Notes: a model not told the origin generated them from the sequence alone. Positions 19,421-49,296 are shown, counted from the stretch's first letter. The stretch is 64,000 nt of DNA from Thermodesulfobacteriota bacterium (GCA_040757775.1 JBFLWQ010000003.1:62001-126000); one strand, 5' to 3'. Numbers and translations are program-made.

Positions 19421-20083
19421 TTATAGTTTCTCAATTATTTTATGAAGCAATGTTAAATCCTCTATTTTTAAACAACTGATGTCTGCAAACAGACTGTCTT
19501 TTGTCCCAGCCCTTGCAATAAAAGTAACTGAGTTTATTTTTGCTGCTTCATAATCACTCAAGGCGTCTCCTATATAGATAGCTTCTGAGGGAGTAATTTT
19601 TTCTTTGTTAATTATCTTTTTTACAATATCAAGCTTTTTTATAGGTGCGCCATAGATACCCTTAAAGTAATGCCCTATATTCCTCTTTCTTACTATTTCT
19701 TCTATTTCTTCCTGTGGAGTACCCGTAGCAATAAAGCATCGATACAATTCTGCATGTTCTTCTAAAAACTCTTTTGCGCCCCTTACATATGATGAGCTTA
19801 CAACTTCATCTACAACGAGGTCTGAAAATTTTTTACATAATTGCTGAAACTTTAGTTCTGTTAAGGGTTGTTTTAATATGTTTTCATATATATATTTGAA
19901 TTTCTCATACCTTGAAACACCACCATTTCTGGTGTGGTACTCTATGATTTTTCTGACCGCTATTTCCCCTTCAGATTCAAAGAGGATTGCAAATGCCTTG
20001 GTTTTTATATCAAAAGATTCGACAATTACCCCATCAAAATCAAAAATTATCACTTTAACCCTTAGTTTCTGCACTGTATTCAT
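19421..20083 (-). CDS. HAD-superfamily phosphatase (beta-phosphoglucomutase-like)
   Basis: 220 residues with HAD motif I IFDFDGVIVES, motif II in FIATGTPQEE, the motif III lysine in GAPIKKLDI and motif IV IYIGDALSDYEAA. The helical cap between motifs I and II places it with PGMB/phosphoglycolate-phosphatase-like subfamily I enzymes. A phosphatase is expected after aldol or PEP condensation steps that use phosphorylated sugars, which fits the aldolase and KdsB genes in the same block. Its ATG overlaps the upstream SDR stop by four bases. Confidence 0.85.
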   Translation of the reverse strand: MNTVQKLRVKVIIFDFDGVIVESFDIKTKAFAILFESEGEIAVRKIIEYHTRNGGVSRYEKFKYIYENILKQPLTELKFQQLCKKFSDLVVDEVVSSSYVRGAKEFLEEHAELYRCFIATGTPQEEIEEIVRKRNIGHYFKGIYGAPIKKLDIVKKIINKEKITPSEAIYIGDALSDYEAAKINSVTFIARAGTKDSLFADISCLKIEDLTLLHKIIEKL

Positions 20084-20991
20084 TCTTTTACCACCAGCCC
20101 ATCATAAGTGGGGAGCGGATAAAGGTCTTTATATATACCCTGAAGGCATTTAATAAGCCCTTGGCCCAGATCAACATAGCTTTTGCTGATAAGTCTTTTT
20201 GCAATTTTCGGGGCAAAGGTGTAGGGTGTAATCTCATAGTGATAATTGAATGAAGGGGGGGTATATTTTATCTCTATTTTGTTGTCAAGTATCTCCTTTA
20301 TCATACTTAAAAGGTCTTTCAGCTTCATCTGCTGATTGCCAGTGATTATTACATACTGATTGACAAATTCGTCTGTAAGTATTTCTATACTGCCTTTGGC
20401 TGCATCATACACATGGATGTATTCCCTTAGTTCTTCTCCATCACCTTCGCGGGTAATCTTTCCTTTAGTAAGTGCCTCAGTTAATATCTTATGAATAAAG
20501 TTTTTCTTGTCAGCTCGTGGTCCATAAAGAGAACCATATCGGAGTATGGTATAGGGTAATCCAAAGACCTCTTTATAGTTTTCTATCAGGAGTTCACAGG
20601 ATTGTTTTGTGCTTCTATAGAAAGAACCAGCCTTGCTGTACACATAAAGTGAGCTGGCAAACATAAACCTCTTGATACTGTTTTTTCTGCATGCTTCCAG
20701 AATAATAGAGTTGCCTACTATGTTATACTTTACACTGTCCAGCGGTCTCTTGCTGGCTTCATCTATATCTGCAATGCCTGCAAAGTTATAAACAAAATCA
20801 CACCCTGACACAGCCTCTTCAACAGCGGATTCATTAAGAATGTCTCCGACAATCATTTCCTGTTTACTACTTATAAACGGAGATGGACGAATATCAAAAA
20901 CCCTCACTTCATATTCCACAGCTGTCAATGCATCTGCGACATGGCTTCCAAGAAACCCTGAACCACCAAAAATTACCGCTCTCTTTGACAA
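20080..20991 (-). CDS. NAD-dependent epimerase/dehydratase (extended SDR)
   Basis: 303 residues. The Rossmann motif is FGGSGFLGSHVADAL, followed by YNFAGIADIDEA, FASSLYVYS and the catalytic YRSTK. The start is TTG at 20991 with GAGGTG six bases upstream; the gene abuts the preceding dehydrogenase gene directly. It is smaller than typical 4,6-dehydratases and closer to generic nucleotide-sugar epimerases or reductases. It is translationally coupled to the HAD gene, suggesting consecutive steps. Confidence 0.83.
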   Translation of the reverse strand: MSKRAVIFGGSGFLGSHVADALTAVEYEVRVFDIRPSPFISSKQEMIVGDILNESAVEEAVSGCDFVYNFAGIADIDEASKRPLDSVKYNIVGNSIILEACRKNSIKRFMFASSLYVYSKAGSFYRSTKQSCELLIENYKEVFGLPYTILRYGSLYGPRADKKNFIHKILTEALTKGKITREGDGEELREYIHVYDAAKGSIEILTDEFVNQYVIITGNQQMKLKDLLSMIKEILDNKIEIKYTPPSFNYHYEITPYTFAPKIAKRLISKSYVDLGQGLIKCLQGIYKDLYPLPTYDGLVVKE

Positions 20992-21900
20992 TTACGCCAC
21001 CTCTTTTAAACCCTTTAAAAGATTTTCCACCGCCTGTGTTTCCATCTGTATCCTTGCTTCCTTTGCATAAGATCCAATGTGTGGAGTCAGGATAACACTG
21101 TTCAGATCTTTCAAAGAACCGTTGTAAGGCTCTTTTGCAAAGACATCCAAAGCGGCACCTGATAGATCACCTGCTTTGAGGGCATTGTGTAATGCATCCT
21201 CGTCAACTATACCGCCTCTGGAGGAATTAACTAGCCATGCCCCTTTTTTCATTATTTTAAATTCCCTCTTTCCTAATAGCTTTTCGTTCCCGGAAACATG
21301 GATAGACACGATGTCTGCCCAGACAAGCAGCTCTTCCAAAGATAGTCGTTTTAATTCCATCAGTCCATCTTCAACAAAAGGGTCCGCATAGGCTATCTCA
21401 CAACCAAAGGGCTTCAGAAACTCAGCCACTTTCTTTCCAACCCTTCCAAAACCAACTATGCCAATTTTTTTACAAAACAGGAGGTTTCCCATCTTTTTTT
21501 GCCAGTGTCCGTTACGAAGTTTTCTATCCATATCACAAACTTTTCGTAGCAAATTAAGCATTAACCCGATAGTTAATTCAGCAACTGCAAGTGTTGGAGC
21601 ATCTGGAGTATTGAATACTTTTATCCCCAGTTTATCAGCGGCAGTAATATCTACATTCTCAACCCCCACCCCGCACCGAGAGATAACTTTTAATTCTGAG
21701 AGCTTTTGAAGGACATCCGCAGTGATTCGCTCTGTACCAGCTATAAGACCAGCACATCCCTGGCAAAGATTTGTCAACTCTTCTCCTGATAAAGTTCTTT
21801 TATGGGGATTAAGCTGGAACTCTAATTCATGTTCCATTAGAGTATCCAAAGGGGTTCTGTCGTACTCCGCAAATGAAGATGTCGAGATCAAAATTTTCAT
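20992..21900 (-). CDS. D-2-hydroxyacid dehydrogenase (phosphoglycerate-dehydrogenase-like)
   Basis: 302 residues with the NAD motif GIVGFGRVGKKVAEFL, SRCGVGVENVD, the catalytic Arg in NSSRGGIVDE, Glu in DVFAKEPY and His in LTPHIGS. It is therefore an intact member of the SerA/hydroxypyruvate-reductase family, without the C-terminal ACT regulatory domain of biosynthetic SerA. It probably interconverts a 2-keto acid and a D-2-hydroxy acid for the cluster's sugar-acid pathway rather than for serine synthesis. Start ATG at 21900. It ends next to the SDR start with no gap. Confidence 0.88.
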   Translation of the reverse strand: MKILISTSSFAEYDRTPLDTLMEHELEFQLNPHKRTLSGEELTNLCQGCAGLIAGTERITADVLQKLSELKVISRCGVGVENVDITAADKLGIKVFNTPDAPTLAVAELTIGLMLNLLRKVCDMDRKLRNGHWQKKMGNLLFCKKIGIVGFGRVGKKVAEFLKPFGCEIAYADPFVEDGLMELKRLSLEELLVWADIVSIHVSGNEKLLGKREFKIMKKGAWLVNSSRGGIVDEDALHNALKAGDLSGAALDVFAKEPYNGSLKDLNSVILTPHIGSYAKEARIQMETQAVENLLKGLKEVA

Positions 21901-21905: not shown

Positions 21906-23876
21906 TTACTGGACTCCCAGTGCACTCAACTTGTCTCTCAGATATTCACATGGCATATCGACAAACTTGAAAAACTCGTTGACATTGTCTTTTGCCTTTA
22001 TCATATCAGAGTCGTTGATCTGGTCATTTTTGTTTATTATATCTGTAATTTCATTTTCCAGTTCAGCACTTGAAGAGACATATTTAAATAATCCTGTTAC
22101 TCTTGTGGCTGAAAAAGGACTGTGATCAAGCGTATTCACAATCAGGGGTATTATAACTTTACACTGATATGCCAGGGCTTCTAAATTTGCAGTTGAACCG
22201 CAGGCAACTAAGATCTTTGACTCCTCTAATAGCTTCTCAAGCAGATGGTTGGATTGTGTAAAATTAAATCGAATCTCGTCTTTATTAATAATATGGTTCA
22301 GACTTAGGGCAGGATGGGTTTTTATAATGACATTAAAATCGTAATTATTGATATTTATGCTATTGAAAAGCTGGATAAGCTTTCTTGATTCATCAGCGTG
22401 CAGGTTGGTAGCAATAACAATCTGATTCTTCTTTCTTTGCCATGAATAGTTGTTTAAAAGTACCTTGTATAAGTATTGATGCCGGAAACTACACCATACC
22501 TGAATGGTTTTGTTTCCCCATCCACACTCTCTCAGGAAATTTGCAGGAATCTCACCTGAACAGGCAATCAAATCTGGTTTGGGTATCGAACAAAGGTCGT
22601 TTCCCTCAAGCTCAACCCTGGAATTAAAATAGCCTAAGAAGTAGTAAGGTAATATTGCATGCTGAAGGGCAAGCAAATTTGCATTTGTATATTTTTTAAC
22701 ATTGAAACACAGTGATTTTTCCCAGGGCTGCATCTCAAAAATGTAAAATGCTAATTTAAGATGCTTCTGCCCTTTAAAAGTATTCTTGAAAGAATAAAAA
22801 TGCATCAGTTCTTGAAGTAGATGTGCACCCTCAAAAGACCTGTACCATGTTTCTCTAAATATGGGCCATACATCCCAGTCTCTGTAAAAGTCATTGAATA
22901 GCAATTTGATTCTATTCTTATATAGCATTGATTTAAATTTCATTGTCAGATAATTCAGCATTATCCAGAACCAACTATGCAACTTTAAGTACTCAAGATG
23001 AAATTTCAGGTTGTATCCTTTCTTGTTTAAATCTTTACCTATCCTTAAAATTTCAGAATATTTGTAACCATCCATTTCTACCGGGATGGCGATCCATTTG
23101 ATTTTCTCTTTTTTCCCATTTTCTATTGCTGATTGAATATCAGGGCAGTATTTATTAACGAATTTCCCATTCTTTAATTTTTCTCTGTCTAATAAGGGGA
23201 AATAGGTTACACCAATCGTTTCAGTTTCGATACTCTCTGAGGTAACTTCAGCGGTTAACCTCTTGTTTAAGAGATAAAACTTTAAAAATCCAAGTATCAA
23301 GGCATATATTGCAACACAATGTTTAATAATGTTTTTTATGGTAAACCTGATGGTGTTGTTTTTTCTAAGAGTTACCAGGTCTATTTTTTGCTTAATGCAG
23401 GCTTTAATAAGAGTTCTTATAACCTCATAATTTTCAAAATCAGCTATTACCAAACTGCAATCATATTTATTCGCAGTAGAAATTATTGAATAGAATAAAG
23501 TCAAATCTTTAAAAACTGATGTCTTATAGGTGCTTTTCTCTTCGACTAACGAAGACCACCAGAGCGAATAGTTTTCATCAATCATTTTAGTAAAATCTAA
23601 GATATTTTGTGATCTTTTTACTTGTTTCTTTGCTATATCACCAACGTATTTAATGTATTCATGCCTGATATTATATGCATTTTCATGAAAGATTTCTGAT
23701 GAGTTTAAATTCTCATAGTCTATAGATTCTTTTTTTAAAAAGTCTGCGATGGATAAATGCCCTGATACATCTAGGGCAAATAAATAGTATTTATAGGTTT
23801 TAAATTCCTTTATTGTCCTCTCACTCTTTGAATTCCAGCCTTCATTATCAAAAATGTAGAGCGCTGTTTTCTTCAT
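21906..23876 (-). CDS. Uncharacterised large surface-carbohydrate protein, possible GT-B transferase
   Basis: About 656 residues. It starts MKKTALYIFDNEGWNS, has one hydrophobic stretch in the first half (IKHCVAIYALILGFLKFYLL) and a C-terminal half like GT-B transferases: IVIATNLHADESRKL, IIKTHPALSLN and VACGSTANLEALAYQCKVII. The last pattern, a Ser/Thr loop followed by Glu, resembles capsule-synthesis and ulosonic-acid transferase folds. I do not recognise a named family. A GTG at 23912 would add 12 residues but overlaps the upstream stop and lies over a dispersed repeat, so ATG 23876 is preferred. It sits amid CMP-sugar genes and may transfer such a sugar; this is inference. Confidence 0.6.
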   Translation of the reverse strand: MKKTALYIFDNEGWNSKSERTIKEFKTYKYYLFALDVSGHLSIADFLKKESIDYENLNSSEIFHENAYNIRHEYIKYVGDIAKKQVKRSQNILDFTKMIDENYSLWWSSLVEEKSTYKTSVFKDLTLFYSIISTANKYDCSLVIADFENYEVIRTLIKACIKQKIDLVTLRKNNTIRFTIKNIIKHCVAIYALILGFLKFYLLNKRLTAEVTSESIETETIGVTYFPLLDREKLKNGKFVNKYCPDIQSAIENGKKEKIKWIAIPVEMDGYKYSEILRIGKDLNKKGYNLKFHLEYLKLHSWFWIMLNYLTMKFKSMLYKNRIKLLFNDFYRDWDVWPIFRETWYRSFEGAHLLQELMHFYSFKNTFKGQKHLKLAFYIFEMQPWEKSLCFNVKKYTNANLLALQHAILPYYFLGYFNSRVELEGNDLCSIPKPDLIACSGEIPANFLRECGWGNKTIQVWCSFRHQYLYKVLLNNYSWQRKKNQIVIATNLHADESRKLIQLFNSININNYDFNVIIKTHPALSLNHIINKDEIRFNFTQSNHLLEKLLEESKILVACGSTANLEALAYQCKVIIPLIVNTLDHSPFSATRVTGLFKYVSSSAELENEITDIINKNDQINDSDMIKAKDNVNEFFKFVDMPCEYLRDKLSALGVQ

Positions 23877-23885
23877 AGAGAGATG

Positions 23886-23908
23886 CCTTTGCACAACCTG
23901 CCAAGAGC
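23886..23908 (-). repeat. Dispersed 23-bp sequence, copy 2
   Basis: Read on the minus strand, this stretch matches 689-711 on the plus strand in 21 of 23 positions (core GGCAGGTTGTG). It occupies nearly all of the short gap between the methyltransferase stop and the ATG at 23876. Function unknown. Confidence 0.45.
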
Positions 23909-23913
23909 CCACG

Positions 23914-24906
23914 TTATAACTTTTGGGCTAACATACACATATGAGAGCTTAAATTGTTTTCCTGAAGAAACTTCTGGAAATTTTCCTTCACACTCGTTGG
24001 TGATTTCTTAATAAGATACCGAATGAATCTGTTCTGCGAAACAAGATCGATATTGTTTTCAATGATATTAACGTCGAGTTTCCCAGGTGTGAAAGATTTT
24101 ATTACCCTGTATCCAGTTCGGTCTAAAAGTATTTCCAACGATTCTACATTAAAGAAATTTATATGGTGGGGAGGGAAGATGCTGTCCGATTTGTTCCATA
24201 GATTTAACAGCTCAAAACCATTAATATTTAACGTTGTTAAAATTAAATAACCGTTATTGGCCAAAAGTCCATTGATCGCTCTTAAAAATTTTTCTGGAGA
24301 AAAAAGGTGCTCAATGACTTCAAACGAGGTTGCTGCCTTAAAATAATTTTTTGGTTCTTTTACTTTTTCTACCGCCATTTCAATAATGCTAAACCCTTTT
24401 TCCCTGCATATAGCAGCTAAATAAGTTGACGGCTCTACCCCTGTAATCTCGTTGAAAAAATTTATTTTTTGGACTTCCTCTCCAAAAATCCCGTATCCCA
24501 TCCCAACATCCAGAAGGTTTTCCATCCTTTCATCTCCTGAGGCTTCCCTCAGTAAGTCGACAACCATTTTAGCCTTTGGTGAGAAGATTTCTTTTCGCCT
24601 TGCCTCCTCTGTTTCTTTAAAGAGATGTTCTGCCCAGTATTTAGTAGCTTTTGATCTCTTATAGTAATTATTAATCGCCGATTCGGGAGGCCGAGGGTTG
24701 GCAAAGAGAGTGCCGCATTTCAGACACTCAACGTAAACAAATCCGTTTTTGGTAAACTGATTTTTGAAATCCTTTGATTCTTTACATGCAGGGCAGGGGC
24801 AATAAAGACGTTTAACTGTATCGTTAAAGAATTCTTTGATGTCTTCTCTGGACAAACGCAGAAATTCCTTCTGTAAATGAAGGGGTCTGATATCGGCTTC
24901 TTTCAT
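23914..24906 (-). CDS. Zinc-ribbon class I SAM methyltransferase
   Basis: 330 residues. An N-terminal zinc ribbon shows CPACKESKD and, 20-odd residues on, VECLKCGTLFANPRPP. A Rossmann methyltransferase domain follows, with motif I LLDVGMGYGIFGEEV and FEVIEHLFSPEKFL. Zinc-ribbon methyltransferases of this type occur widely in O-antigen loci and act on nucleotide sugars or glycan termini; related C-methyltransferases make branched sugars. Start ATG at 24906 is preceded by GGGGAAG. It lies between an uncharacterised transferase and a KdsB-type gene. Methyl acceptor unknown. Confidence 0.85.
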   Translation of the reverse strand: MKEADIRPLHLQKEFLRLSREDIKEFFNDTVKRLYCPCPACKESKDFKNQFTKNGFVYVECLKCGTLFANPRPPESAINNYYKRSKATKYWAEHLFKETEEARRKEIFSPKAKMVVDLLREASGDERMENLLDVGMGYGIFGEEVQKINFFNEITGVEPSTYLAAICREKGFSIIEMAVEKVKEPKNYFKAATSFEVIEHLFSPEKFLRAINGLLANNGYLILTTLNINGFELLNLWNKSDSIFPPHHINFFNVESLEILLDRTGYRVIKSFTPGKLDVNIIENNIDLVSQNRFIRYLIKKSPTSVKENFQKFLQENNLSSHMCMLAQKL

Positions 24907-24924: not shown

Positions 24925-25686
24925 CTAATACTTTAATAATAGAGGATCATTTTTCATGATTTTTTCTACATTTTTCACGTCTTCTGGAACATCTACGCTG
25001 TATGTCTCAAAAGGTGACTCGATTATTTTTACCCTGTATCCGTGCTCAAGCCATCGCAGCATGTCAATGGACTCTATTTCCTCTAAAGTGGTCATTTCCA
25101 AAGACGTATAAAGCTGTAAGGATTCTTTTGTAAAGGGCATGACACAGACTTCAACCAGACAATCAAACCTCTTATCTCCAAGCCATTTTGACGGAATAGT
25201 TTCTCTTGAAAAATACATGGCATAACCCTTTTTATCGCATACAACCTTTACCTCATTTCTATCCTCTGCATATTCCTGCGAGACTCTTTTCGCCAGGTTT
25301 ACACATACTATAGAATTATCTTGGATAAGTGACTCAACCGCCAATCGTAACATTTCGGGATTAACCAGCGGTTCATCACCCTGCAGATTTATGATAATAT
25401 CTGCATCGTTGCCGAGAATCATCGCCGCTTCAGCCACCCTCTCAGATGCCCTCCTGTGCTGGTTACCTGTCATGATAACTTTTCCGCCGAATGCTTCCAC
25501 TCTCTCCTTTATTTCATGGTCAGGGGTTGCAATATATGTCCCATCAAGAAAATCAGTCATGTCAGCACGTTTATAAACATGCTCTATCATGGGCTTACCG
25601 CATATATTAACAAAGGGTTTGTCCCTGAAACGGTAAGACCCCAGACGGGCAGGAATGATACAGATGATTTTCTTTCCATCCTTCAT
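24925..25686 (-). CDS. KdsB-type CMP-ulosonate cytidylyltransferase, copy 1
   Basis: 253 residues, the length of KdsB. It has IIPARLGSYRFRDKPFVNI, GKPMIEHVYKRA, LQGDEPLVNPEM (metal-binding Asp) and EVKVVCDKKGYAMYFSR, all features of 3-deoxy-manno-octulosonate cytidylyltransferases. The usual TERLAE segment is changed to SERVAEAA, and the sequence is quite divergent, so the substrate may be a different 3-deoxy-ulosonic acid. The ATG overlaps the stop of the SDR upstream. A second, non-identical KdsB-type gene lies just beyond that SDR, so at least one copy is probably not the housekeeping Kdo enzyme. Confidence 0.85.
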   Translation of the reverse strand: MKDGKKIICIIPARLGSYRFRDKPFVNICGKPMIEHVYKRADMTDFLDGTYIATPDHEIKERVEAFGGKVIMTGNQHRRASERVAEAAMILGNDADIIINLQGDEPLVNPEMLRLAVESLIQDNSIVCVNLAKRVSQEYAEDRNEVKVVCDKKGYAMYFSRETIPSKWLGDKRFDCLVEVCVMPFTKESLQLYTSLEMTTLEEIESIDMLRWLEHGYRVKIIESPFETYSVDVPEDVKNVEKIMKNDPLLLKY

Positions 25687-26621
25687 TTTTTCATCCTTTC
25701 CAGACTGAGTGCTTGAGCAAGCATCTTTTCCAATCCTTTTTTCAATTCTACATATGGCTGAAAACCCGCCACTTTTTGAAAAAGACTGATGTCCGCACAG
25801 ATGCCAAAAATATCTCCTTGTGTGTTTCCTGATACTTCAACAGGTACTTTTCTCCCATAAACCTCAAACAGGGTTTCAATCAACTGCTGGACAGTTGTTT
25901 TTATTCCTGTCCCCACATTAAATATTTTGCCGATTGTTCTTTCGTCACGCAAGCAAATTAAAAAAGCATTAACTACATCGTCTATATATATGAAATCCCG
26001 AAAACGATTCAGGCTGCCTTTCACTATAATATTGTTATTCTTAATCATCTGAGCCAGATAAATACTTACCATTCCCTGACGCAAATTTTCGAGATTCTGA
26101 CCGGGCCCGTAAACATTAAACAACCGCAAAGAGGTCGGTCTGATTCCCATCTTATGATATATCCTGAGATAATGTTCACTGGCTACCTTCCCAACACCAT
26201 AAAAAGAAACGGGCATTAGCTCTTCATCTTCATTAACTGGTCTGTCTTCCTTTACCCCGTACACCGACATCGTACTTGCATAGATGAATCTCTCGCACCC
26301 GGTCTTCAGTCCAAAATTGATGAGGTGCAATGTTGACTCTGTATTCGTACTGAGATCATATACCGGGTCGTCAAAACTGATTTCTCCAGAGGACTGGCCT
26401 GCAATATGTAAGATTGCGTCAAACCTGGTATCTGTCAAGTCGTCATAAATTGAGCTATCCTGGCAGTCTCCATTTATGAACACCGAACCTTTTGGAACAT
26501 TTTCCAGATAGCCGGTAGTGAGATTATCGATAATGACGACTTCATGTTCCTGTTCCAGCAGGACCTTTGCAACCCACGAACCGATAAAACCCGCTCCCCC
26601 TGTCACCAGATATTTGCTCAT
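25683..26621 (-). CDS. NAD-dependent epimerase/dehydratase (GalE-like extended SDR)
   Basis: 312 residues with TGGAGFIGSWVAKVLL, a GalE-like second segment IIDNLTTGYLENV, YASTMSVYG and catalytic YGVGK. It resembles UDP-hexose 4-epimerases and related dehydratases. It is locked between two KdsB-type genes by ATGA overlaps at both ends (25683-25686 and 26618-26621), which suggests the three proteins are made together and act on related substrates. It may modify a CMP-linked or precursor sugar; no activity can be assigned. Confidence 0.86.
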   Translation of the reverse strand: MSKYLVTGGAGFIGSWVAKVLLEQEHEVVIIDNLTTGYLENVPKGSVFINGDCQDSSIYDDLTDTRFDAILHIAGQSSGEISFDDPVYDLSTNTESTLHLINFGLKTGCERFIYASTMSVYGVKEDRPVNEDEELMPVSFYGVGKVASEHYLRIYHKMGIRPTSLRLFNVYGPGQNLENLRQGMVSIYLAQMIKNNNIIVKGSLNRFRDFIYIDDVVNAFLICLRDERTIGKIFNVGTGIKTTVQQLIETLFEVYGRKVPVEVSGNTQGDIFGICADISLFQKVAGFQPYVELKKGLEKMLAQALSLERMKK

Positions 26622-27397
26622 AACTTAATCTCTGCATACCTGTGGATAAGATCATCAGTTTTCATCAAACTTTCCACCTTACACAGGTCTTCCAGTGTAT
26701 CTACACTATAAGTATCACGGTCAGTCATCACCATCTTGATTTTAAACCCATGCTCTATAATTCGTAACATATCAACTGACTCTATAATTTCCAGAGGTGT
26801 TGGTTCAAGCTCATTGAACTTAATAAGAAAATCTCTCCTGAAGGGAATAATACATACCTGTTTTAACATTGGAACTTCTTTTGCCCCTTTTTTCCAGGAG
26901 GGTATGGGTTCCCTGGAAAAGTAAATTGCATAATTTTTTTTATCTATGACCACCTTGACCTCATTGGGGTCATTATGTTCTTCCTGGGATTTCTGGGGAG
27001 CCATTAGATTTACTACCTGAATATTTTCATCCTTCAACATGGGGTTAACTGCTGCGTCAATCATCTCCGGGTAAATCATCGGCTCATCACCCTGTATCAT
27101 CACCACAATATCAGTCTTTCTTCCTGTTTCATTTTCTATCGTAAGCATTGCTTCAGAGGCTCTATCTGATGCCCTCTCATGAGTATCACTGGTCATAATG
27201 GCCCTTGCCCCGATAGACCCTGCATAATCCATTATATCTCTGTCACAGGTTGCAATGTAGACTTCATTTAAAATACTGCTCATTTTGCTTCTAAAATAAA
27301 CGTGCCCTATCATCGGGATACCATTTATTTTGGCAAGAGGCTTACCAGGAAAACGGGATGAAGCCATCCGGGCAGGAATTATACCAATAGTGTTCAT
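26618..27397 (-). CDS. KdsB-type CMP-ulosonate cytidylyltransferase, copy 2
   Basis: 259 residues from ATG 27397, which is preceded by AGGAG and overlaps the aldolase stop by ATGA; a longer frame from 27445 lies inside the aldolase gene and is rejected. It contains GIIPARMASSRFPGKPLAKI, GIPMIGHVYFRS, MIQGDEPMIYPEM and EVKVVIDKKNYAIYFSR. It shares the fold of copy 1 but is clearly divergent, so this is not a recent duplication. The KdsB TERLAE motif is replaced by SDRASEA. Predicted to couple CTP to a 2-keto-3-deoxy sugar acid, probably the product of the adjacent aldolase. Confidence 0.85.
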   Translation of the reverse strand: MNTIGIIPARMASSRFPGKPLAKINGIPMIGHVYFRSKMSSILNEVYIATCDRDIMDYAGSIGARAIMTSDTHERASDRASEAMLTIENETGRKTDIVVMIQGDEPMIYPEMIDAAVNPMLKDENIQVVNLMAPQKSQEEHNDPNEVKVVIDKKNYAIYFSREPIPSWKKGAKEVPMLKQVCIIPFRRDFLIKFNELEPTPLEIIESVDMLRIIEHGFKIKMVMTDRDTYSVDTLEDLCKVESLMKTDDLIHRYAEIKL

Positions 27398-28191
27398 ATA
27401 TTCTCCTTTAATCCTCGCATAATCTTTTTCATTCCCTCTCTGCATGAAGTGCCCAAAAACAACGTATCCAAACTGAAGGCAATAAATCGGTAGCCTTCCT
27501 CTATCTTTTTTAGGACATGTTTGGCATCCGGTGGAATTATATGAAACCCTGATACCGCCCCATATTTTTTTGCCACTTCCATTATACGGTTAAGGGCTTT
27601 TCTCACCTCAGGATGATCAAATTCACCTGGTTTTCCCAACGACCCTGATAGATCATAAGGTCCAACTATAAAGGCGTTTATACCATCTACACTCAGGATT
27701 TTTTCTAGGTTATTTACTGCTTCAATGTGTTCAATCTGAACGATAACAATACTTTCTTTGTTTACCCATTCTTTGTATTCCTCAAATTCTAGGCCGTATC
27801 CTTGTGCACGGGCAAGTCCTACTCCCCTTGTTCCCACAGGTGGATACTTTACAGCATTTACTGCCTTTATTGCATCTTCCTGTGTATTTACCATAGGGAC
27901 AATAACCCCGTAGGCACCCGCATCCATAACTCTTTTTATGATATTGGCGTTGTTTTCTTCAACACGAACTAAAGGAGGTACACCGCATAGTTCTATAACC
28001 TGTATGATTTGCTGTGCCTGATGTAATGTTATAGCAGAATGTTCCATATCCACGGTCAGCCAGTCAAAACCAGACCTTGCCATAATCTCTGCTATATAAG
28101 GGTTGCCTATAGTAATCCACGAGCCAATAGTTACGTTATGAGTATTCAGGCGTTCTTTGAAGCTAAGTTTCTTTTTTTCCATTTTTTTCAT
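27394..28191 (-). CDS. HpcH/HpaI-family class II pyruvate aldolase
   Basis: 265 residues of TIM-barrel fold. Visible family features are TVDMEHSAITL (catalytic His region), PPLVRVEENN (substrate Arg), GAYGVIVPMVNTQ, GTRGVGLARAQGYG, IVQIEHIEAV with the metal-binding Glu, and FIVGPYDLSGSLG with the metal-binding Asp. Such enzymes add pyruvate to an aldehyde to form a 4-hydroxy-2-keto acid, or run in reverse. In catabolism they cleave ketodeoxyglucarate and similar acids. Here, next to two CMP-ulosonate synthetases, it more likely makes a 2-keto-3-deoxy acid for activation. Start ATG at 28191. The 93 bases upstream hold no recognisable gene. Confidence 0.88.
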   Translation of the reverse strand: MKKMEKKKLSFKERLNTHNVTIGSWITIGNPYIAEIMARSGFDWLTVDMEHSAITLHQAQQIIQVIELCGVPPLVRVEENNANIIKRVMDAGAYGVIVPMVNTQEDAIKAVNAVKYPPVGTRGVGLARAQGYGLEFEEYKEWVNKESIVIVQIEHIEAVNNLEKILSVDGINAFIVGPYDLSGSLGKPGEFDHPEVRKALNRIMEVAKKYGAVSGFHIIPPDAKHVLKKIEEGYRFIAFSLDTLFLGTSCREGMKKIMRGLKENI

Positions 28192-32313: not shown

Positions 32314-32426
32314 GATAGTTGAGTAGTTGAGTGATAGCTTTTGTCCTTTTTGCCATACTTCCAGGTCACGGAAATCAGATTTCATTTGTCCATTCTGTTC
32401 TTCATCTACTCAACCACTCAACTATC
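32314..32426. repeat. CAACTACT-type repeat arms around a four-helix-bundle remnant
   Basis: The arms 32314-32333 (minus strand CTCAACTACTCAACTATC-like) and 32407-32426 (plus strand CTCAACCACTCAACTATC-like) are near-perfect inverted copies. A third copy lies at 33403-33424. They enclose the remnant at 32335-32385. The right arm overlaps the stop codon of the RfbG gene. Confidence 0.6.
32335..32385 (-). pseudogene. N-terminal remnant of a four-helix-bundle (23S rRNA IVS-type) protein
   Basis: The first 17 codons of the long frame, MKSDFRDLEVWQKGQKL, match the conserved start of four-helix-bundle proteins encoded by 23S rRNA intervening sequences and found dispersed in many genomes (DLEVWQKA-type). 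After this the frame runs into low-complexity CAACTACT repeat codons (LNYSTI) and then into the epimerase. The rest of the roughly 120-residue family is missing. It is therefore a broken copy that happens to be in frame with the epimerase. Confidence 0.68.
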
Positions 32427-33396
32427 TACTAAAAAACTCCCTATACCATTCTATCGTTTCGCTAAGTCCTTTCTCTAAGGTATATAAAGGCTTCCATTCC
32501 AATACCTCTCTTGCCTTTTGTGCTGAAAGATATTGATGATGAATTTCGTTTTTAACCTTATTTAATACGATTGGCTCTAAATCTTCTCTGCCCATCATTT
32601 TCAATATCTTCTTTACTAATTCTAAAACAGATATTTGTATTTCATTACTGAAATTAAAGGCTTCTCCGTATATAAGCAGTGTGTCCATCTTTTCTGCTAA
32701 AAATAGATAGGCATTAACCGCATCAAGTATATAAATGTAATCCCTGATAAATGAACCATCACTTCTAATTACTGGATATTCGTTATTTATAACCGAACGA
32801 ATGGTTCCGGGGACGATCCGGTTGAAGTTCAAATCCCCCCCACCATAAAAGTTCCCGCACCTGGTGATGCAGACTGGCAGTTTATAAGTGTCGTAGTAAG
32901 TAAATGCAATTAAATCAGCACAGCTCTTTGAAACGTCATACGGATGAGAACCTCTGAGGGGTGTGTCTTCGGTATAGGGCAGAATTTCCTGCTCTCCGTA
33001 TGCCTTGTCACTGGAGGCTACTACAATTCTTTTGACTGTTGGATTCCTCCGGCATGCTTCTAAAAGATTCCATGTACCTTTTATATTGGTTTCAAAAGTG
33101 GATATTGGATTTCTGTTTGCAATGCTGACTATGGTTTGGGCAGATAAATGGAAGACTGTGTCTATTTCATATTCGTTGATGACTCTCTCCAGGAGTAAGT
33201 AGTCTTCAATTTCTCCTCTTAGCACATTTATTTCATTTATAAATCCGGACCAGTTCAGATTGGATTTAGGCACCCAGTCTCTTATCAAGCCTGTAACATT
33301 GGCACCCCTTTCAACCAGGAGTTTAGTTAACCATGAGCCTAAAAGTCCAGTACAGCCTGTTACAAATACATTCCTGTTCAGCCAGTAATCCCGCAT
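32422..33396 (-). CDS. rfbG: CDP-glucose 4,6-dehydratase-like SDR
   Basis: 324 residues. The N-terminus [46 protein letters not shown] and catalytic YDVSK are close to RfbG/DdhB, which turns CDP-glucose into CDP-4-keto-6-deoxyglucose using bound NAD. Start ATG at 33396 has AGGAG upstream. The cytidylyltransferase RfbF is immediately upstream, a standard pairing. The usual next enzyme, the iron-sulfur 3-dehydratase RfbH, is absent from the window; an epimerase and SDR follow instead. Slightly shorter than typical RfbG (about 355). Confidence 0.86.
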
Positions 33397-33402
33397 AATC
33401 TC

Positions 33403-33424
33403 CTACTCAACTACTCAACTAATC
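33403..33424 (+). repeat. CAACTACT-type repeat, third copy
   Basis: The RfbG-RfbF gap contains CTACTCAACTACTCAACT, nearly identical to the arms at 32314-32333 and 32407-32426, continuing into a CTCAACCAACCC variant. This is probably debris from the same repeat family. Confidence 0.55.
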
Positions 33425-33440
33425 AGCCCCTCAACCAACC

Positions 33441-34214
33441 CTACCATACCTTCCAGGGAGGATTACCATTTTCCCATAACTCAGTCAGGTATTTATAGTC
33501 CCTGTAGGTATCCATGCACTGCCAGAAGCCTTTATGCTGGAATATTTTTAGTTCACCATCTGAAGCCAATTTTTCTAAAGGCTCCCTTTCCAGGACACAA
33601 TTATCGTCGTTTTTCAGGTAATTGAAGAACGCCCTGTTAAATACAAAAAAACCACCATTAATTGAGTTATTATTGGTTATAGGTTTCTCATTGAATGAAA
33701 TTACCTGATCTTTATGAATCAGGAGCTCGCCATATCGGGAAGGTGGAGATACCCCCGTTACCGTTCCTATCTTGCCATGGCTTTTATGAAAATTCAGTAA
33801 TTCTTGAACATTCAGATCTGTTACCCCATCTCCATAGGTTAACATGAAGGTATCTCCATCAATAAATCTCTCAATTCGTTTTACACGTGTGCCTGTCATG
33901 GCGTTTAGCCCTGTGTCTATTAATGTAATTTCCCATCCTGTTTCTGAATGCTTGGGATATATTTCTATGTTCTTCGAGCCAAGCTCAATTGTGAAGTCGT
34001 TTGATAGGATTTCATAGTGATAAAAATACTCTTTTATAACTTCACCTTTATAACCAAGACAAAGAATAAACTTGTTAAACCCGTAATAGGCGTATGTCTT
34101 CATGATATGCCATAGAATCGGCATACCTCCAATTTCGACCATGGGCTTTGGTCTTATCTCTGTCTCTTCTCTCAAACGGGTACCAAAACCACCACAGAGT
34201 ATAGCAACTTTCAT
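33441..34214 (-). CDS. rfbF: Glucose-1-phosphate cytidylyltransferase
   Basis: 257 residues from ATG 34214; a TTG at 34229 would add five residues. It has the nucleotidyltransferase signature ILCGGFGTRLREETEIRPKPM and the RfbF-specific continuation MKTYAYYGFNKFILCLGYKG, then LTYGDGVTDLN with the metal Asp and WQCMDTYRDYKYL. RfbF makes CDP-glucose from CTP and glucose-1-phosphate. Length equals the family (about 257). It starts the CDP-6-deoxyhexose branch with RfbG downstream. Confidence 0.94.
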   Translation of the reverse strand: MKVAILCGGFGTRLREETEIRPKPMVEIGGMPILWHIMKTYAYYGFNKFILCLGYKGEVIKEYFYHYEILSNDFTIELGSKNIEIYPKHSETGWEITLIDTGLNAMTGTRVKRIERFIDGDTFMLTYGDGVTDLNVQELLNFHKSHGKIGTVTGVSPPSRYGELLIHKDQVISFNEKPITNNNSINGGFFVFNRAFFNYLKNDDNCVLEREPLEKLASDGELKIFQHKGFWQCMDTYRDYKYLTELWENGNPPWKVW

Positions 34215-34259
34215 AGTACAGCCTTTCAAAAGTATCTTCTATTTAAGGACAAAACTCAC

Positions 34260-38887: not shown

Positions 38888-40115
38888 TGCTAGCAATTTT
38901 TCCTAGTAGTGTATCCGCCACAATGTCTCCAAATAGACGATCTTCGTTTGTATCCAGTTTTATATACTTTCTCTCAAAATCTTCATAACCAGCAGGATTA
39001 TAGGAAAAAATCCCTTTATTTAACATCTGCTGCAAGTCGGCATCCCTGTCAATATAGTGAATTTCTGAACCCAAAGCCTTGGCATGAGCTATTATATTAT
39101 TTTGGAAAAAGGTGTCGCCCTTCATTTTCCATATTGATATAAAACATACAGGCTTTTTATGAATTACCGCAAACTTCACTGCCCCAGAGTAATGGCAGAT
39201 TACACCGCTTGAGTATTTTATCAACTGTTCAGTATCGTAAAGAAAAGGGCGTTCATTATAGACATTATCTTCATCTGTATGTTTAGGATGTGCTGCTATT
39301 ATTATCCTTTTTCCTGTATTTCTTTCCACAAAATCGAAGAACTCATTAATAATTTTGGAGTAATCTAGTTTGCTTATTCCTCCAGTTATGTTGAGAATGG
39401 GATAATCATGGCCGCCCCAGGGTGTGTCTGCAATATGGACATAATATTCTCCATCCGGGATATATTCTGCTTTGGGTTTGCATTTATTTCTCAGGTATCT
39501 GTCATAATCAAAGGAGTGTGCATGAATAACCTGAGTTTTCGGAGGGGGGTAGCAGTAAGGAGAGGTTTCTGATCCGAGAAAATAGTATTCTGGATATCTG
39601 ATGCCAAAGAAATATGCGAATCTGTAGGAAAGCCTGTACATATAATTTTTGACTTTTCCCATAAAGGAACTTGAAAAAAAGGTTGCAGGGTTTGCAATCA
39701 TAGTTTTAAATATTCGTAAAAAGCGTCCGAAAATTGTTTTTCCCTCTCCCATGACAGGCGGATGTATGTTTCCATTTGTGATTATATAGTCCACATTAGC
39801 GCTCTTAAGAATTCGTAGTAACTTTATGCCAGGAAAAACCACGAGAAAGGCGATCTTCCATCCCCTTATACTATCCAGATGCTTTCTTAAATCCTTTCCG
39901 GACTCAATCCAGAACTGTTCAATTCCCATTACCGGTTCCAGTAACTTATTGTATTGCAATTCTTCCAGAGCCTCAGGATGTAAAAAATTGAATACGTTCA
40001 ATATAACAATGTTAAATCCTCTTTTGCTCAGTATATCGAATCCATATTTGAGGGCATAGTCCTCATTGAATGGGTAAACCGTAATAAATATTATGTTCTT
40101 CTTGCTTACCAGCAC
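38880..40115 (-). CDS. Uncharacterised protein, possible GT-B transferase
   Basis: 411 residues, no signal peptide or clear membrane span. The N-terminus NIIFITVYPFNEDYALKYG is Rossmann-like. The C-terminal half has RIIIAAHPKHTDE and ICHYSGAVKFAVIHKKPVCF, which resemble the donor-binding half of capsule or sialyl-type GT-B transferases. I do not recognise a named family. It starts with GTG at 40115, overlapping the SDR stop upstream, with GGAGG close to the start. Placed in the CMP-sugar block, so transfer of a CMP-activated sugar is conceivable but unproven. Confidence 0.58.
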   Translation of the reverse strand: MLVSKKNIIFITVYPFNEDYALKYGFDILSKRGFNIVILNVFNFLHPEALEELQYNKLLEPVMGIEQFWIESGKDLRKHLDSIRGWKIAFLVVFPGIKLLRILKSANVDYIITNGNIHPPVMGEGKTIFGRFLRIFKTMIANPATFFSSSFMGKVKNYMYRLSYRFAYFFGIRYPEYYFLGSETSPYCYPPPKTQVIHAHSFDYDRYLRNKCKPKAEYIPDGEYYVHIADTPWGGHDYPILNITGGISKLDYSKIINEFFDFVERNTGKRIIIAAHPKHTDEDNVYNERPFLYDTEQLIKYSSGVICHYSGAVKFAVIHKKPVCFISIWKMKGDTFFQNNIIAHAKALGSEIHYIDRDADLQQMLNKGIFSYNPAGYEDFERKYIKLDTNEDRLFGDIVADTLLGKIASNG

Positions 40116-40936
40116 GTCCTCCCGCCATCAATTACCAGATTAGTACCGGTCATATAGTATGATGCATCAGAGACGAGAAAAATAATTGCAGCCTTGTATT
40201 CATCTTTTTTTGCCATTCTTCCCATTGGTATCAGGTTTGTAAGCCTGGCTACGAAATCCTCGGGCTGGTTGGTATAGACCCCACCGGGTGAGATGGCATT
40301 GACCCTCACACCTGCCTTTGCCCAGTATGTGGCAAGATACCTTGTCAGTCCGATAAGACCGTGTTTAACAACAGAGTACGTAACGGGCTTTACAGGCTGA
40401 AGCTCTTCTGATAGCCCCTCTTTTTGATAAATTCGCTGGTCAGGTGCAATAATGCTCAAATCGGATGCGATATTCAGGATCACTCCACCACCACTTTTAG
40501 CCATGTGTGTACCAACTATCTGACTGCACAAAAAGGCACCTGTCAGACCGACAGAAATATCCTGATGCCACATCTCAATAGAGAAATTCTCAAAACGACT
40601 CCACTCGTGTTCACTCGCATTGTCAACCTTTGGATCGTTAGCGGCATTATTAATCAGTATGTCAACCCTGCCAAAATCTGATAGTGTTTTATTTAATCCA
40701 TCTTTAATAGTATCGCCAGAGGTTATGTCTACCTCCATGGCACGGCATGGAACCTTCCACTGCTTTGAGATTTCTGACACATATTCTTCAGCATTTGTTA
40801 CATCTATGTCCCATAATACAGGGATTCCCCCTGCTTCGGCAATCGCCTCGGCATGTTGAATCCCTAAGAGTCCAGCGCCTCCGGTGATCAGCGCCACCTT
40901 GTTATCAATTCTGAATTGCTTAAGCGCTTCTTCCAT
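40106..40936 (-). CDS. Classical SDR, PtmA-like
   Basis: 276 residues from ATG 40936, preceded by AGAGGAGAAC; the longer frame to 40978 runs into the upstream gene. Classical SDR features: VALITGGAGLLGIQHA cofactor motif, VDILINNAANDP, NIASDLS serine, YSVVKHGL active site and the C-terminal TGTNLVIDGG. The variant GGAGLLG and the company of a NeuA-type gene recall PtmA of Campylobacter flagellin glycosylation, which is found beside the cytidylyltransferase PtmB. It probably oxidises or reduces a sugar or sugar acid. Confidence 0.85.
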   Translation of the reverse strand: MEEALKQFRIDNKVALITGGAGLLGIQHAEAIAEAGGIPVLWDIDVTNAEEYVSEISKQWKVPCRAMEVDITSGDTIKDGLNKTLSDFGRVDILINNAANDPKVDNASEHEWSRFENFSIEMWHQDISVGLTGAFLCSQIVGTHMAKSGGGVILNIASDLSIIAPDQRIYQKEGLSEELQPVKPVTYSVVKHGLIGLTRYLATYWAKAGVRVNAISPGGVYTNQPEDFVARLTNLIPMGRMAKKDEYKAAIIFLVSDASYYMTGTNLVIDGGRTCW

Positions 40937-40946
40937 GTTCTCCTCT

Positions 40947-41762
40947 TTAAGACTCCGGGATCCGGAAATAGGATTCATCTTGTTCCAGCTTTTTGACTGC
41001 TAAGCCGACGGCATCAGCCAGCTTGAAAAAAGTGATCCGATAGTCATCAAGCTGGGTCTCCCGCATTTTGTTTTCAGACAGTAAGTCTTTGCGTAGTTTG
41101 ATAAACCATTCTGACGAACCTGGATATTTCTTAAGCCTGACAAAAGCCCTTCTGCCTCCTGGCTCATCGACCAAGACCTTTAAATTTGACTGGTAAAGAT
41201 AGGAACAATCTGCGATGAATTCAGCCACATGGATACCCGTGCAGGCTTCCAAGCTGACACCGAGCAACAAGATGTAGCCGCCGTCTTTAAACAGCTTATA
41301 ACATGGACTTCCTACTCCCTCAGACTCATGAAGAGGATGTCCGCAGGTATAGTAATCTGCTTTTCTGCCAATAGCAGCCACGGAACTGATTGGATGATAG
41401 CTCCTTCGGACTTCCGGATAGTTTAAGAAGTACTGAGGAAGAATCCCCCTGTTCCTGACCGGTGTTTTCTTTGGATCAAAAGGATTCATTTTTTGCTTGA
41501 TTTTCTTTACCCATGTCTGAGGCACAGGGGGATTTTTCCAGTCCTGAGGATCGGTCAGATCGCCGCTATGTGATGGCACCAGCAGCGTGCCACCAGGCCC
41601 GATCAATTCAAGCAGCGCATCTATGATGTCATACGGTCCATTGACCACGTAACCTAAACCGCTCAATGAACTATGCACCATTAACGACATGTTAGACTTG
41701 ATACCTAGTTGGAGAAAAATCTTGACCAGATCACCCTTCGAATAGATTTTCTGCTCTGGCAA
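40947..41762 (-). CDS. AAC(3)-family N-acetyltransferase
   Basis: 271 residues from a TTG at 41762 with AAAGGAGGT just upstream; a TTG at 41804 lies inside the preceding gene. Family features: MVHSSLSGLGYVVNGPYDI, GPGGTLLVPSHSGD, HPISSVAAIG and a Cys-rich LEACTGIHVAEF segment. AAC(3) enzymes acetylate the 3-amino group of aminoglycosides with acetyl-CoA. Relatives in glycan loci acetylate amino sugars. With two class III aminotransferases next to it, it most likely acetylates the amino group they add. It need not confer antibiotic resistance. Confidence 0.84.
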   Translation of the reverse strand: MPEQKIYSKGDLVKIFLQLGIKSNMSLMVHSSLSGLGYVVNGPYDIIDALLELIGPGGTLLVPSHSGDLTDPQDWKNPPVPQTWVKKIKQKMNPFDPKKTPVRNRGILPQYFLNYPEVRRSYHPISSVAAIGRKADYYTCGHPLHESEGVGSPCYKLFKDGGYILLLGVSLEACTGIHVAEFIADCSYLYQSNLKVLVDEPGGRRAFVRLKKYPGSSEWFIKLRKDLLSENKMRETQLDDYRITFFKLADAVGLAVKKLEQDESYFRIPES

Positions 41763-41787
41763 ACGACCTCCTTTTAATCTCCTGTCA

Positions 41788-43179
41788 TCACAGCAATTCC
41801 CCAATCGCCTCTTCTACTACCTCAAGTCCCTCGACTAATGCATCTTCAGCGATATTAAGGGGCGGACCGTATTTAAGGGTGCCGCAACCTGTACGTATCA
41901 AAAACACCCCCTTTTGCATCGCCTTTTCCACAATCCTGTCAGTCAGTTCTACATCCAGTTGTTCCCTGAATGGTTTGTGAGATTCAGCTCTTGGGTCGCT
42001 TATATATACGGCGTGAAGCATACCTTTTCCAAGGATCAATCTTACAATTTCAGGATATTTTTCACGCAGTCTCTTATTGGCTTCATTAAAGAATATCTCT
42101 TTTCTCTTCGACTCTTCAATCAGTTTCTCTTTTTCGAATATTTCAATAGTCTTTAATCCTGCTGTACAGGCTAATGGGTGCCCCCCGTGTGTACTGGTAT
42201 ATTCAGGATCGAGATCGATTAAGTCAGCCCTGCCCATGACTACCGATAGTGGCACGCTTGATGAGGTTGCTTTTCCACAGATTACCAGATCAGGTTCAAT
42301 ATCATAGTACTGGTAGGCAAAGAGTTTTCCTGTCCTGCCGAACCCTGCCTGAATCTCATCACACATAAGGAGTGATTCATTATCTCGTGACCACTGTCTC
42401 ATTGTCTGGACATAATCCTTCGGATAAAAAACAGCCCCCCATCCCTGAAAGGACTCGATAATAAAGGCAGCTATGTTCTTTAGATTAATTCCTCTTTCTT
42501 CCAGTTGATGGAGATGTTTTTGAAACAGATCTTTTCCTGTCAGCTTTTTTGTGTCTTCTTCCCAGGGATATGGAAACGGCATATGCACCATATTGGGGTC
42601 TAGATATCCTATCCATTTCTTGTCGGCATGTTTTCCGCCAACCATCTGTGAACCCATGGTCTTCCCATGAAAGTTTCCGTCACCTCCAACAATAATATTT
42701 TTATTGGTGGATTTTGTAAGCCCGTACAATCTTGCCAGTTTAACAGCACGCTCAACTGCTTCAGTTCCTGCGCTGAACAGGGAGAATTTTTTAATATAAT
42801 CAGGGGTAAACTGCGACAGCTTTTCAAGATAGTTTGCACGCTCAAAAGTGGGGTAGCTGTATGAATGTAAAAGCGGCTTATCGATTACTTCTTTAAGCCC
42901 TTTTCTGATAGTTTCATGTCCATGCCCTGTATTTGTTACAAAAATTGTAGAAGAAAAATCGATCCATCTGTTACCCCATAAATCTTCGAGGGTATGACCG
43001 TATGCACGGGTCCACATAATAGGCGGCTGGTTTACAACATTTGAAGATTCGTATTTAATGATTTTATTTAATACAGGGAGGGATTCAGGTACAGGAAGCA
43101 TGGTCTTGATGCGCCTGTTCTTCGTTTCTACATGGGGTACATCTACGGGTTTCATTTTAAATCTGTATTCTTCTGTCAT
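41788..43179 (-). CDS. Class III PLP aminotransferase, copy 1
   Basis: 463 residues of fold type I class III: WGNRWIDFSSTIFVTNTGHGH, LFSAGTEAVERAVKLAR, MCDEIQAGFGRTGKLFA (Asp binding the pyridine ring) and VICGKATSSSVPLS with the PLP lysine. Relatives include ornithine, GABA and glutamate-semialdehyde enzymes. In this locus it would aminate a terminal aldehyde or keto group of a sugar. A second class III enzyme lies 0.9 kb upstream across a NeuA gene, but the two are only distantly similar. Start ATG 43179. Confidence 0.87.
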   Translation of the reverse strand: MTEEYRFKMKPVDVPHVETKNRRIKTMLPVPESLPVLNKIIKYESSNVVNQPPIMWTRAYGHTLEDLWGNRWIDFSSTIFVTNTGHGHETIRKGLKEVIDKPLLHSYSYPTFERANYLEKLSQFTPDYIKKFSLFSAGTEAVERAVKLARLYGLTKSTNKNIIVGGDGNFHGKTMGSQMVGGKHADKKWIGYLDPNMVHMPFPYPWEEDTKKLTGKDLFQKHLHQLEERGINLKNIAAFIIESFQGWGAVFYPKDYVQTMRQWSRDNESLLMCDEIQAGFGRTGKLFAYQYYDIEPDLVICGKATSSSVPLSVVMGRADLIDLDPEYTSTHGGHPLACTAGLKTIEIFEKEKLIEESKRKEIFFNEANKRLREKYPEIVRLILGKGMLHAVYISDPRAESHKPFREQLDVELTDRIVEKAMQKGVFLIRTGCGTLKYGPPLNIAEDALVEGLEVVEEAIGELL

Positions 43180-43198
43180 TTTTATATCTCTTTTCTCT

Positions 43199-43245
43199 TA
43201 ACCCCCCAGCCCCCCCTTTTTCAAAGGGGGGGGTGAGGGGGGGTA
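43199..43245. repeat. G/C-run palindromic repeat (PPLTPPF-GG type), copy 1
   Basis: A C-run, CTTTTTCAAAG and a G-run form a strong hairpin (CCCCCCC with GGGGGGG), followed by GTGAGGGGGGG. Conceptual translation on the minus strand gives IPPLTPPFEKGGAGG, a repeat-derived peptide seen across many bacterial genomes. It sits in the gap between the cytidylyltransferase and the aminotransferase. It could act as a transcript stabiliser or attenuator, but no T-run follows. Confidence 0.7.
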
Positions 43246-43278
43246 TTGTCCTTTGTGTCGCCATACGGCATGGATGTT

Positions 43279-44073
43279 TTATTCCCTTTTCACTTGCACC
43301 CCTTTCCAAAGAAGGGGTGAGGGGGGTGCCTTTTCGTAGTTGTTGCACAAATATTCGTGAATCTTGTATTTTTTAGTAAGCAGGTTGTACTCTATCCTTT
43401 CAAAGTCCTCTTCCCTGTCCAGTTCTCCTGTATCAGGTGCGATAAAGCCCAACATTCTACGCCCATAACATGAATTGTGTTTGATTAATGTTTCGCTTTT
43501 GATTATGTCAACGTAACCATTTCCAAAGTATGTTGGAGGAAACGCCTGCCTTGGCAGGTTGTAATACTCTGGCCGTGGATCATTAGGGCAAAGTCCTATA
43601 AGAAATTCATCTTCCATGCCAAACATTTTACATGGGGATTCCTGTATTTCATGAACAGAGACCAAGCCTGTTGCTTCAGGGTAGCTTTTAATCTTTTTTA
43701 CCGCTGTATCAATGACCTCAGGTTCTCTCAGGGGTGTGGTAGGACGTATTTGAACTAAATATTCGGGGATAAACGATTCATTCTCTTTAAACCACCTGAC
43801 GGCGTGTTGGAAGACCTCAATGTCCATAGAGTTATCCCTGGCGAACTCTTCAGGCCTTAAGAAGGGTACTTCGGCTCCAAATTGGCGTGCGACATCAGCA
43901 ATTTCTTCAGAGTCAGTAGATACAATAGTCCTTCCGATCTCAGTCGCAAGTTTACACGCAGCTATCGAATAGGCGATTAACGGGAAACCGCCCATAAACT
44001 TAATATTCTTTTTTGGTATCCCTTTCGATCCTCCCCTCGCTTGAATTATAGCAACTACATTGGCCTTTTTCAT
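43279..44073 (-). CDS. NeuA-type acylneuraminate cytidylyltransferase, copy 1
   Basis: 264 residues from ATG 44073, preceded by GGAG; a GTG at 44082 is possible. The N-terminus VAIIQARGGSKGIPKKNIK with GGFPLIAYSI is the CTP-binding signature of NeuA/PtmB enzymes, followed by VSTDSEEIADVARQFGAEV and RPTTPLRE. It couples CMP to a nonulosonic or related keto acid. The last 15 or so residues are encoded by a palindromic repeat and look foreign. Between two class III aminotransferases, so its substrate is likely an amino-bearing ulosonate. Confidence 0.88.
   Translation of the reverse strand: MKKANVVAIIQARGGSKGIPKKNIKFMGGFPLIAYSIAACKLATEIGRTIVSTDSEEIADVARQFGAEVPFLRPEEFARDNSMDIEVFQHAVRWFKENESFIPEYLVQIRPTTPLREPEVIDTAVKKIKSYPEATGLVSVHEIQESPCKMFGMEDEFLIGLCPNDPRPEYYNLPRQAFPPTYFGNGYVDIIKSETLIKHNSCYGRRMLGFIAPDTGELDREEDFERIEYNLLTKKYKIHEYLCNNYEKAPPSPLLWKGVQVKRE
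43296..43329. repeat. G/C-run palindromic repeat, copy 2, inside a coding C-terminus
   Basis: GCACCCC-TTTCCAAAGAA-GGGGTGAGGGGGGTGC is a second member of the family, only about 50 bases from copy 1. It encodes the last residues of the NeuA-type protein (KAPPSPLLWKGVQVKRE), so the natural C-terminus has been replaced or extended by repeat sequence. Confidence 0.68.
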
Positions 44074-44091
44074 AACTATCACTCCGGCATA

Positions 44092-45426: not shown

Positions 45427-45479
45427 TGTTCCCTCCCAAATTAAACAAATCAGGATTTAGTTGATAAAAAGGATTCGAG

Positions 45480-45494
45480 TCCGCCAGAGGTGGA
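45480..45494. repeat. Small palindrome TCCGCC-AGA-GGTGGA
   Basis: This 15-base palindrome is the reverse complement, apart from end bases, of the centre of the inverted-repeat element at 588-602. It follows AAAAGGATTCGAG, a phrase repeated at 48115-48126. It looks like a dispersed intergenic motif of this genome. Confidence 0.45.
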
Positions 45495-45512
45495 AAGGGT
45501 TCAAGTGTTTAG

Positions 45513-48067: not shown

Positions 48068-48117
48068 TACAGGCTCCTTTTTTGGTTAGTATTCTTCTCC
48101 CATTTGATTGGTGAAAA

Positions 48118-48144: not shown

Positions 48145-48208
48145 CTGACTCCTTGACCCTTTGAACCCTCTTAATCCATTAACTAATTTGGAGATGATCC
48201 AAACATCA

Positions 48209-49272: not shown

Positions 49273-49296
49273 GGAGATTCCCTCCTGAACTCGTCC

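Follow-up and report, generated by a model that had tools for sequence, protein, structure and literature searches.

To our knowledge, the sugars known to be activated with CMP (sialic, legionaminic and pseudaminic acids and Kdo) all come from PEP-dependent synthases. Compared with condensation of PEP, aldol addition of pyruvate is the less favourable reaction, which counts against aldolase-based synthesis. The Kdo pathway uses KdsA, KdsC and KdsB, with KpsU in group 2 capsules (in E. coli, KpsU duplicates KdsB), while sialic, legionaminic and pseudaminic acids are made through NeuB and NeuA. One paper describes Kdo as the only other sugar that is activated in the same way as sialic acid (PMC2901514).

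The locus described here lies in a window of 64,000 nucleotides (the whole stretch of DNA that was analysed), which is part of contig C3 of a Thermodesulfobacteriota genome (3.1 Mb in 50 contigs). Its front is formed by four minus-strand genes encoding, in this order, an HpcH/HpaI-type aldolase, a KdsB-type cytidylyltransferase (KdsB_a), an extended SDR and a second KdsB-type enzyme (KdsB_b). The genes are real and conserved, and they probably represent an undescribed, aldolase-fed route, independent of KdsA and NeuB, to a non-Kdo 2-ulosonic acid activated with CMP. We have much less confidence in any given sugar as the product.

The module has in common with the Kdo pathway the KdsB fold and its catalytic residues, a HAD phosphatase and, as predicted from these, the direct conversion of the acid to a CMP-sugar with CTP. 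It differs in having an aldolase in place of KdsA, in KdsBs that are altered at otherwise constant positions and form a separate clade, and in its occurrence in genomes where no KdsA scored above the cut-off. With the NeuB/NeuA pathways it would share a CMP-ulosonic acid destined for surface glycans and, in 28 of the loci listed below, a NeuA-like transferase. However, it includes an aldolase and a dehydrogenase (PGDH) and no PEP-dependent synthase as a core gene (NeuB scored above threshold in four of the 86 listed loci). The open-access literature that we searched does not describe such a set of genes, in line with the first-pass annotation, which knew of no characterised pathway with this exact set; closed-access work may do so.

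The first-pass annotation had also reported four coupled genes with ATGA at three junctions and, downstream, a zinc-ribbon methyltransferase, a PGDH-like enzyme and a HAD phosphatase. All of these are present (Table 1). The overlaps (aldolase/KdsB_a, KdsB_a/SDR and SDR/KdsB_b) are each of 4 nt, and the four genes are assigned to the same families by Pfam and by NCBIfam. The first ATG of the KdsB_a ORF is at 27445 and the likely start is at 27397 (codon 17), from which the protein begins MNTIGIIPAR and the gene overlaps the aldolase stop codon in ATGA. Two further downstream genes, for a TIGR04326-like protein and a second extended SDR (SDR2), can be added to the earlier list. The five genes 3' of KdsB_b, from the methyltransferase to HAD, are tightly packed on the same strand.

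Table 1. Genes of the module and their coordinates in the window
Gene	Product	Coordinates	Strand	Match or residues
Aldolase	HpcH/HpaI-type class II pyruvate aldolase, 265 aa	27394..28191	-	PF03328, 138 bits
KdsB_a	KdsB-type cytidylyltransferase	26618..27397	-	PF02348, 163 bits
SDR	Extended SDR, NAD-dependent epimerase/dehydratase, GalE-like	25683..26621	-	PF01370, 186 bits; Y141xxxK145, D32
KdsB_b	Second KdsB-type transferase	24925..25686	-	PF02348, 154 bits
Methyltransferase	Zinc-ribbon (CxxC...CxxC) SAM methyltransferase	23914..24906	-	
TIGR04326-like	Surface-carbohydrate protein, predicted GT-B glycosyltransferase	21906..23912	-	181 bits to TIGR04326
PGDH	D-2-hydroxyacid dehydrogenase, PGDH-like, no ACT domain	20992..21900	-	R228/E257/H274
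SDR2	Extended SDR	20080..20991	-	Y125xxxK129
HAD	HAD phosphatase	19421..20083	-	D15xD17, T122, K150, D173/D177

The aldolase is a member of the HpcH/HpaI class II family (PF03328 match, with H51, R76, E154 and D180 in place). It obtained no curated identity as an HpaI, GarL or KDR aldolase, since all NCBIfam equivalog scores were below the cut-off. The subfamily to which it belongs shares PF03328 and the metal and catalytic residues with HpcH/HpaI, YfaU and GarL but differs from them in its glycan context and in two sequence features: a motif, RGVGL-A/Y-RAQ, that is two residues shorter than in YfaU/HpaI (the deletion precedes LARAQ), and GPYDLS in place of GPADLS. Aligned members are 52-68% identical to each other and about 38% identical to the HpaI-type plasmid relatives examined. 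D48, E50, H51, R76, D90, E154 and D180 are invariant in 87/87 members. By alignment, D48, H51, R76, E154 and D180 match the His and Arg of HpaI (PMC8560999) and its metal ligands.

Related aldolases were collected in two surveys. In the phylum (395 genomes, cut-off E <= 1e-60), the subfamily was found in 14 genomes, including that of the window. An alignment of ten of the phylum aldolases was then run as the query against 84,980 species genomes, from which the best 80 loci were taken. Removal of duplicates left 86 distinct loci anchored on the subfamily, and all counts given here are among these listed matches. The frequencies are biased, as the loci are the best 80 scan matches and mostly from MAGs, and some of the archaeal cases may be mis-binned. 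The listed loci cover many bacterial phyla and a few archaeal MAGs. The module occurs in many bacterial phyla and some archaea, where it probably serves surface glycans. Cultured carriers include Syntrophomonas wolfei subsp. methylbutyratica and Daejeonella sp. H1SJ63. Two weak, unannotated aldolase matches were the only ones in phage records.

A CMP-transferase lies beside the aldolase (same strand, within 8 kb, as for the other neighbour counts unless stated) in 80 of the 86 listed loci, and in 47 of those 80 the gap between the two is 150 bp or less. The transferase is of the KdsB type in 52 loci and NeuA-like in 28; at the score thresholds used, on which this mutual exclusion depends, no listed locus has both. 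On the aldolase tree the transferase type switches at least 12 times, with one type nearly always retained. Nothing points more strongly to CMP activation of the aldolase product than this repeated exchange. As a control we read 29 PF03328 loci with flanks of about 1.5 kb. Within these flanks all three loci that belong to the subfamily had a KdsB or NeuA neighbour, and none of the other 26 did. Because the control loci mostly carry more distant aldolases, three closer relatives were also read: two HpaI-type plasmid aldolases (those of about 38% identity) lie in aromatic-catabolic operons, and a haloarchaeal relative has no CMP-transferase nearby. Since the pairing recurs in the listed loci and the control loci outside the subfamily are without it, the adjacency is not due to chance. 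A search for gene fusions, as proof of coupling, found none.

Other genes recur near the aldolase: PGDH in 60/86 listed loci, SDR2 in 44/86, HAD in 39/86, TIGR04326-like relatives in 30/86 (within 10 kb) and the zinc-ribbon methyltransferase family in 24/86. High-scoring relatives of the GalE-like SDR are present in only 9/86. In a plasmid of the cultured Acuticoccus, the aldolase, NeuA-like, PGDH, HAD and SDR2 genes are consecutive. The genome search called for by the first-pass annotation gave a mixed result. Aldolase and KdsB do recur together, followed in several loci by the GalE-like SDR, directly or after one gene (L029, L062, L112 and L127), but among the listed loci the exact four-gene order was seen in this window only. 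Similarly, the functional coupling of aldolase and KdsB that it had proposed is supported by association and residues, whereas the four-gene unit was drawn too narrowly: the first SDR and a second KdsB recur far less often than PGDH, SDR2 and HAD. This rules out the four genes as the whole pathway.

An alternative branch was also seen in which a MocA-type oxidoreductase, a GmhA-like SIS isomerase and a short SDR replace SDR2/HAD (for example, L063, L073, L086, L092 and L103). MocA-type genes occur in 17/86 listed loci, and the SDR2/HAD set (45 loci) and the MocA/GmhA/short-SDR set (17 loci) do not overlap among the 86. A PF04199 'cyclase' (an arylformamidase-like hydrolase) is found near the aldolase in 20/86 listed loci (for example, L061, L080, L110 and L119) and may act in the pathway as a lactonase or deacylase.

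We aligned 62 module KdsBs (a few near-identical) with 21 canonical ones (KpsU, Haemophilus influenzae KdsB and 19 housekeeping enzymes from the phylum), using KpsU numbering. The module enzymes, KdsB_a and KdsB_b included, belong to the KdsB fold family and retain the catalytic residues R10, K19, Q96, D98 and D225 together with R15 and R204. They differ at four positions, which we take, from KdsB-Kdo structures, to line the Kdo site: E201 and Q202 (changed to D and M in 62/62), H172 (Q in 60/62) and Y176 (I in 56/62). In the canonical enzymes E201, Q202 and Y176 are constant and H172 nearly so. At 172/176/201/202, KdsB_a has Q/I/D/M and KdsB_b E/M/D/M, so that neither has the canonical set; the genome's own canonical KdsB has H/Y/E/Q. 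In a tree, the module KdsBs form one clade split from canonical KdsB with 100/100 support, and KpsU falls on the canonical side. These comparisons support the view that the module KdsBs are not ordinary Kdo enzymes.

The two KdsBs of the window are non-identical, as had been noted (about 47% identity). KdsB_b belongs to a second clade, where it groups with 100/100 support with the second KdsB of two other carriers, Daejeonella (L129, Bacteroidota) and a MAG from Chlorobiota (L134). In L129, KdsB_b forms a cluster away from the aldolase with the SDR, a methyltransferase-like gene and a TIGR04326-like gene. This clade and these neighbours indicate that the pair is an old arrangement, and KdsB_b and the GalE-like SDR appear to form an additional branch that would serve a second acid related to the first, such as its epimer. 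Conservation and the KdsB_b clade rule out a local accident or duplication.

The window's genome has its own Kdo genes, KdsA on contig C11 (392 bits) and canonical KdsB on contig C26, and KdsA is also present in the Daejeonella and Chlorobiota carriers. In nine other carriers (archaea, Bacillota and Chloroflexota) no KdsA was found above the curated cut-off. A Nitrosomonas assembly has no KdsA match either, so single absences may be assembly gaps. With that limit, the earlier suggestion of a route that bypasses KdsA has support, and the module looks independent of it.

The accessory enzymes keep their catalytic residues. PGDH has the R-E-H catalytic triad and GxGxxG of the D-2-hydroxyacid dehydrogenases (the best other copy in the genome, on contig C19, is 39% identical), the DxD and following motifs of HAD are intact, and both SDRs have YxxxK. 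The TIGR04326-like protein resembles the surface carbohydrate proteins of that family in its match, which extends over most of its length, and in its predicted GT-B fold (AF2 mean pLDDT 80.7), but scores below the curated cut-off of 250 bits. Foldseek matched it to GT-B proteins in general. Its identification as a KpsC-like Kdo transferase was considered and dropped, as the sequence match (E=0.18) was not used and the fold search was unspecific. It is a possible user of the CMP-sugar.

In the route that we propose, the metal-dependent aldolase would combine a small aldehyde with pyruvate (or hydroxypyruvate) into a 2-keto acid, as its family and intact active site suggest. KdsB_a, or elsewhere a NeuA-like enzyme, would couple this acid with CTP to form the CMP-acid, a step for which gene association and the catalytic residues argue and which would pull the reversible aldol reaction forward. 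PGDH, SDR2 and HAD may prepare the substrate or alter the product, in an order and on substrates that are predicted, and the GT-B protein or another transferase would place the residue in a surface glycan.

Several other explanations were weighed against this. Both KdsBs might make ordinary CMP-Kdo for capsule or O-antigen, the aldolase being an unrelated neighbour. KpsU is the best PDB match for both, both exceed the TIGR00466 kdsB cut-off and carry the NCBIfam label 3-deoxy-manno-octulosonate cytidylyltransferase, and the genome does make Kdo. We nevertheless consider this unlikely, given the changes at positions where canonical KdsB is constant, the separate clade with KpsU outside it, the nine carriers without KdsA above the cut-off and the coupling of aldolase and transferase in most listed loci. 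That the aldolase replaces NeuB-type synthases, adding pyruvate to a hexosamine-like sugar to give a nonulosonic acid, would fit the 28 loci with NeuA-like transferases, a family that scores weakly to PseF, and the promiscuity of HpcH aldolases (PMC7610986). But the aldehydes preferred by HpcH/HpaI aldolases, which use pyruvate or hydroxypyruvate, are small hydroxyaldehydes (PMC7610986), KdsB-type enzymes fill the same role in 52 listed loci, and separate NeuB, NeuC and LegC/PseC-like genes are present in the window; we regard it as improbable. Highly improbable is an aldolase that works towards cleavage, to break down or recycle an ulosonic acid. Although the characterised HpcH/HpaI members are mostly catabolic (PMC7610986), here a CMP-transferase and glycan genes stand alongside, catabolic neighbours are absent, and catabolic relatives have quite different surroundings.

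A further alternative concerns the nucleophile. PGDH and HAD might convert 3-phosphoglycerate to hydroxypyruvate for the aldolase, and the product would then be a 3-hydroxy, not a 3-deoxy, 2-ulosonic acid. The CMP-activated ulosonates that we know of are all 3-deoxy, which counts against this; moreover, HAD is absent where loci carry MocA/GmhA instead, and the substrate of PGDH is a prediction. We therefore find it distinctly unlikely, even with two intact active sites and genes that often adjoin the aldolase. Some wild-type HpcH/HpaI aldolases do accept hydroxypyruvate (PMC7610986), and this and their substrate range make its supply by PGDH/HAD possible rather than demonstrated.

The window contains other sugar-acid genes, all on the minus strand. 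Its NeuB genes are 19-28 kb from the module and have their own NeuA/NeuC genes. At 47219-51991, a short NeuB-like protein, a KdsC-type phosphatase and a NeuA/PseF-like transferase, with PGDH-like dehydrogenases on either side, form a second ulosonic-acid-like unit, in which PGDH again adjoins a CMP-transferase and NeuB takes the aldolase's place. NeuB, NeuC, NeuD-like and LegC/PseC-like genes at 54987-59091 make up an apparent sialic/legionaminic-type pathway. At 40106-46397, genes for an SDR, an acetyltransferase that by eye is AAC(3)-like, two class-III aminotransferases, a PseF-like transferase and a protein like a sugar isomerase may constitute another CMP-sugar route, one whose nitrogen chemistry would be unusual. 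An RfbG-like dehydratase and RfbF (358.7 bits) are encoded at 32422-34229; RfbF is near the aldolase in several other listed loci too.

Taken at its fullest, the aldolase-fed route would define a new class of CMP-ulosonic acid in bacteria and archaea, built by the aldolase, perhaps from hydroxypyruvate supplied by PGDH/HAD, and activated by a KdsB-derived family that has departed from Kdo, with two related acids in genomes that have two KdsBs. We put this forward tentatively, as a possibility. A widespread aldolase-fed route, one that extends to archaea and to monoderms without KdsA, would in itself bring a further class of sugar to surface glycans. Many KdsB entries now labelled as Kdo enzymes in databases would be corrected, and the module would provide a genetic marker for finding the sugar.
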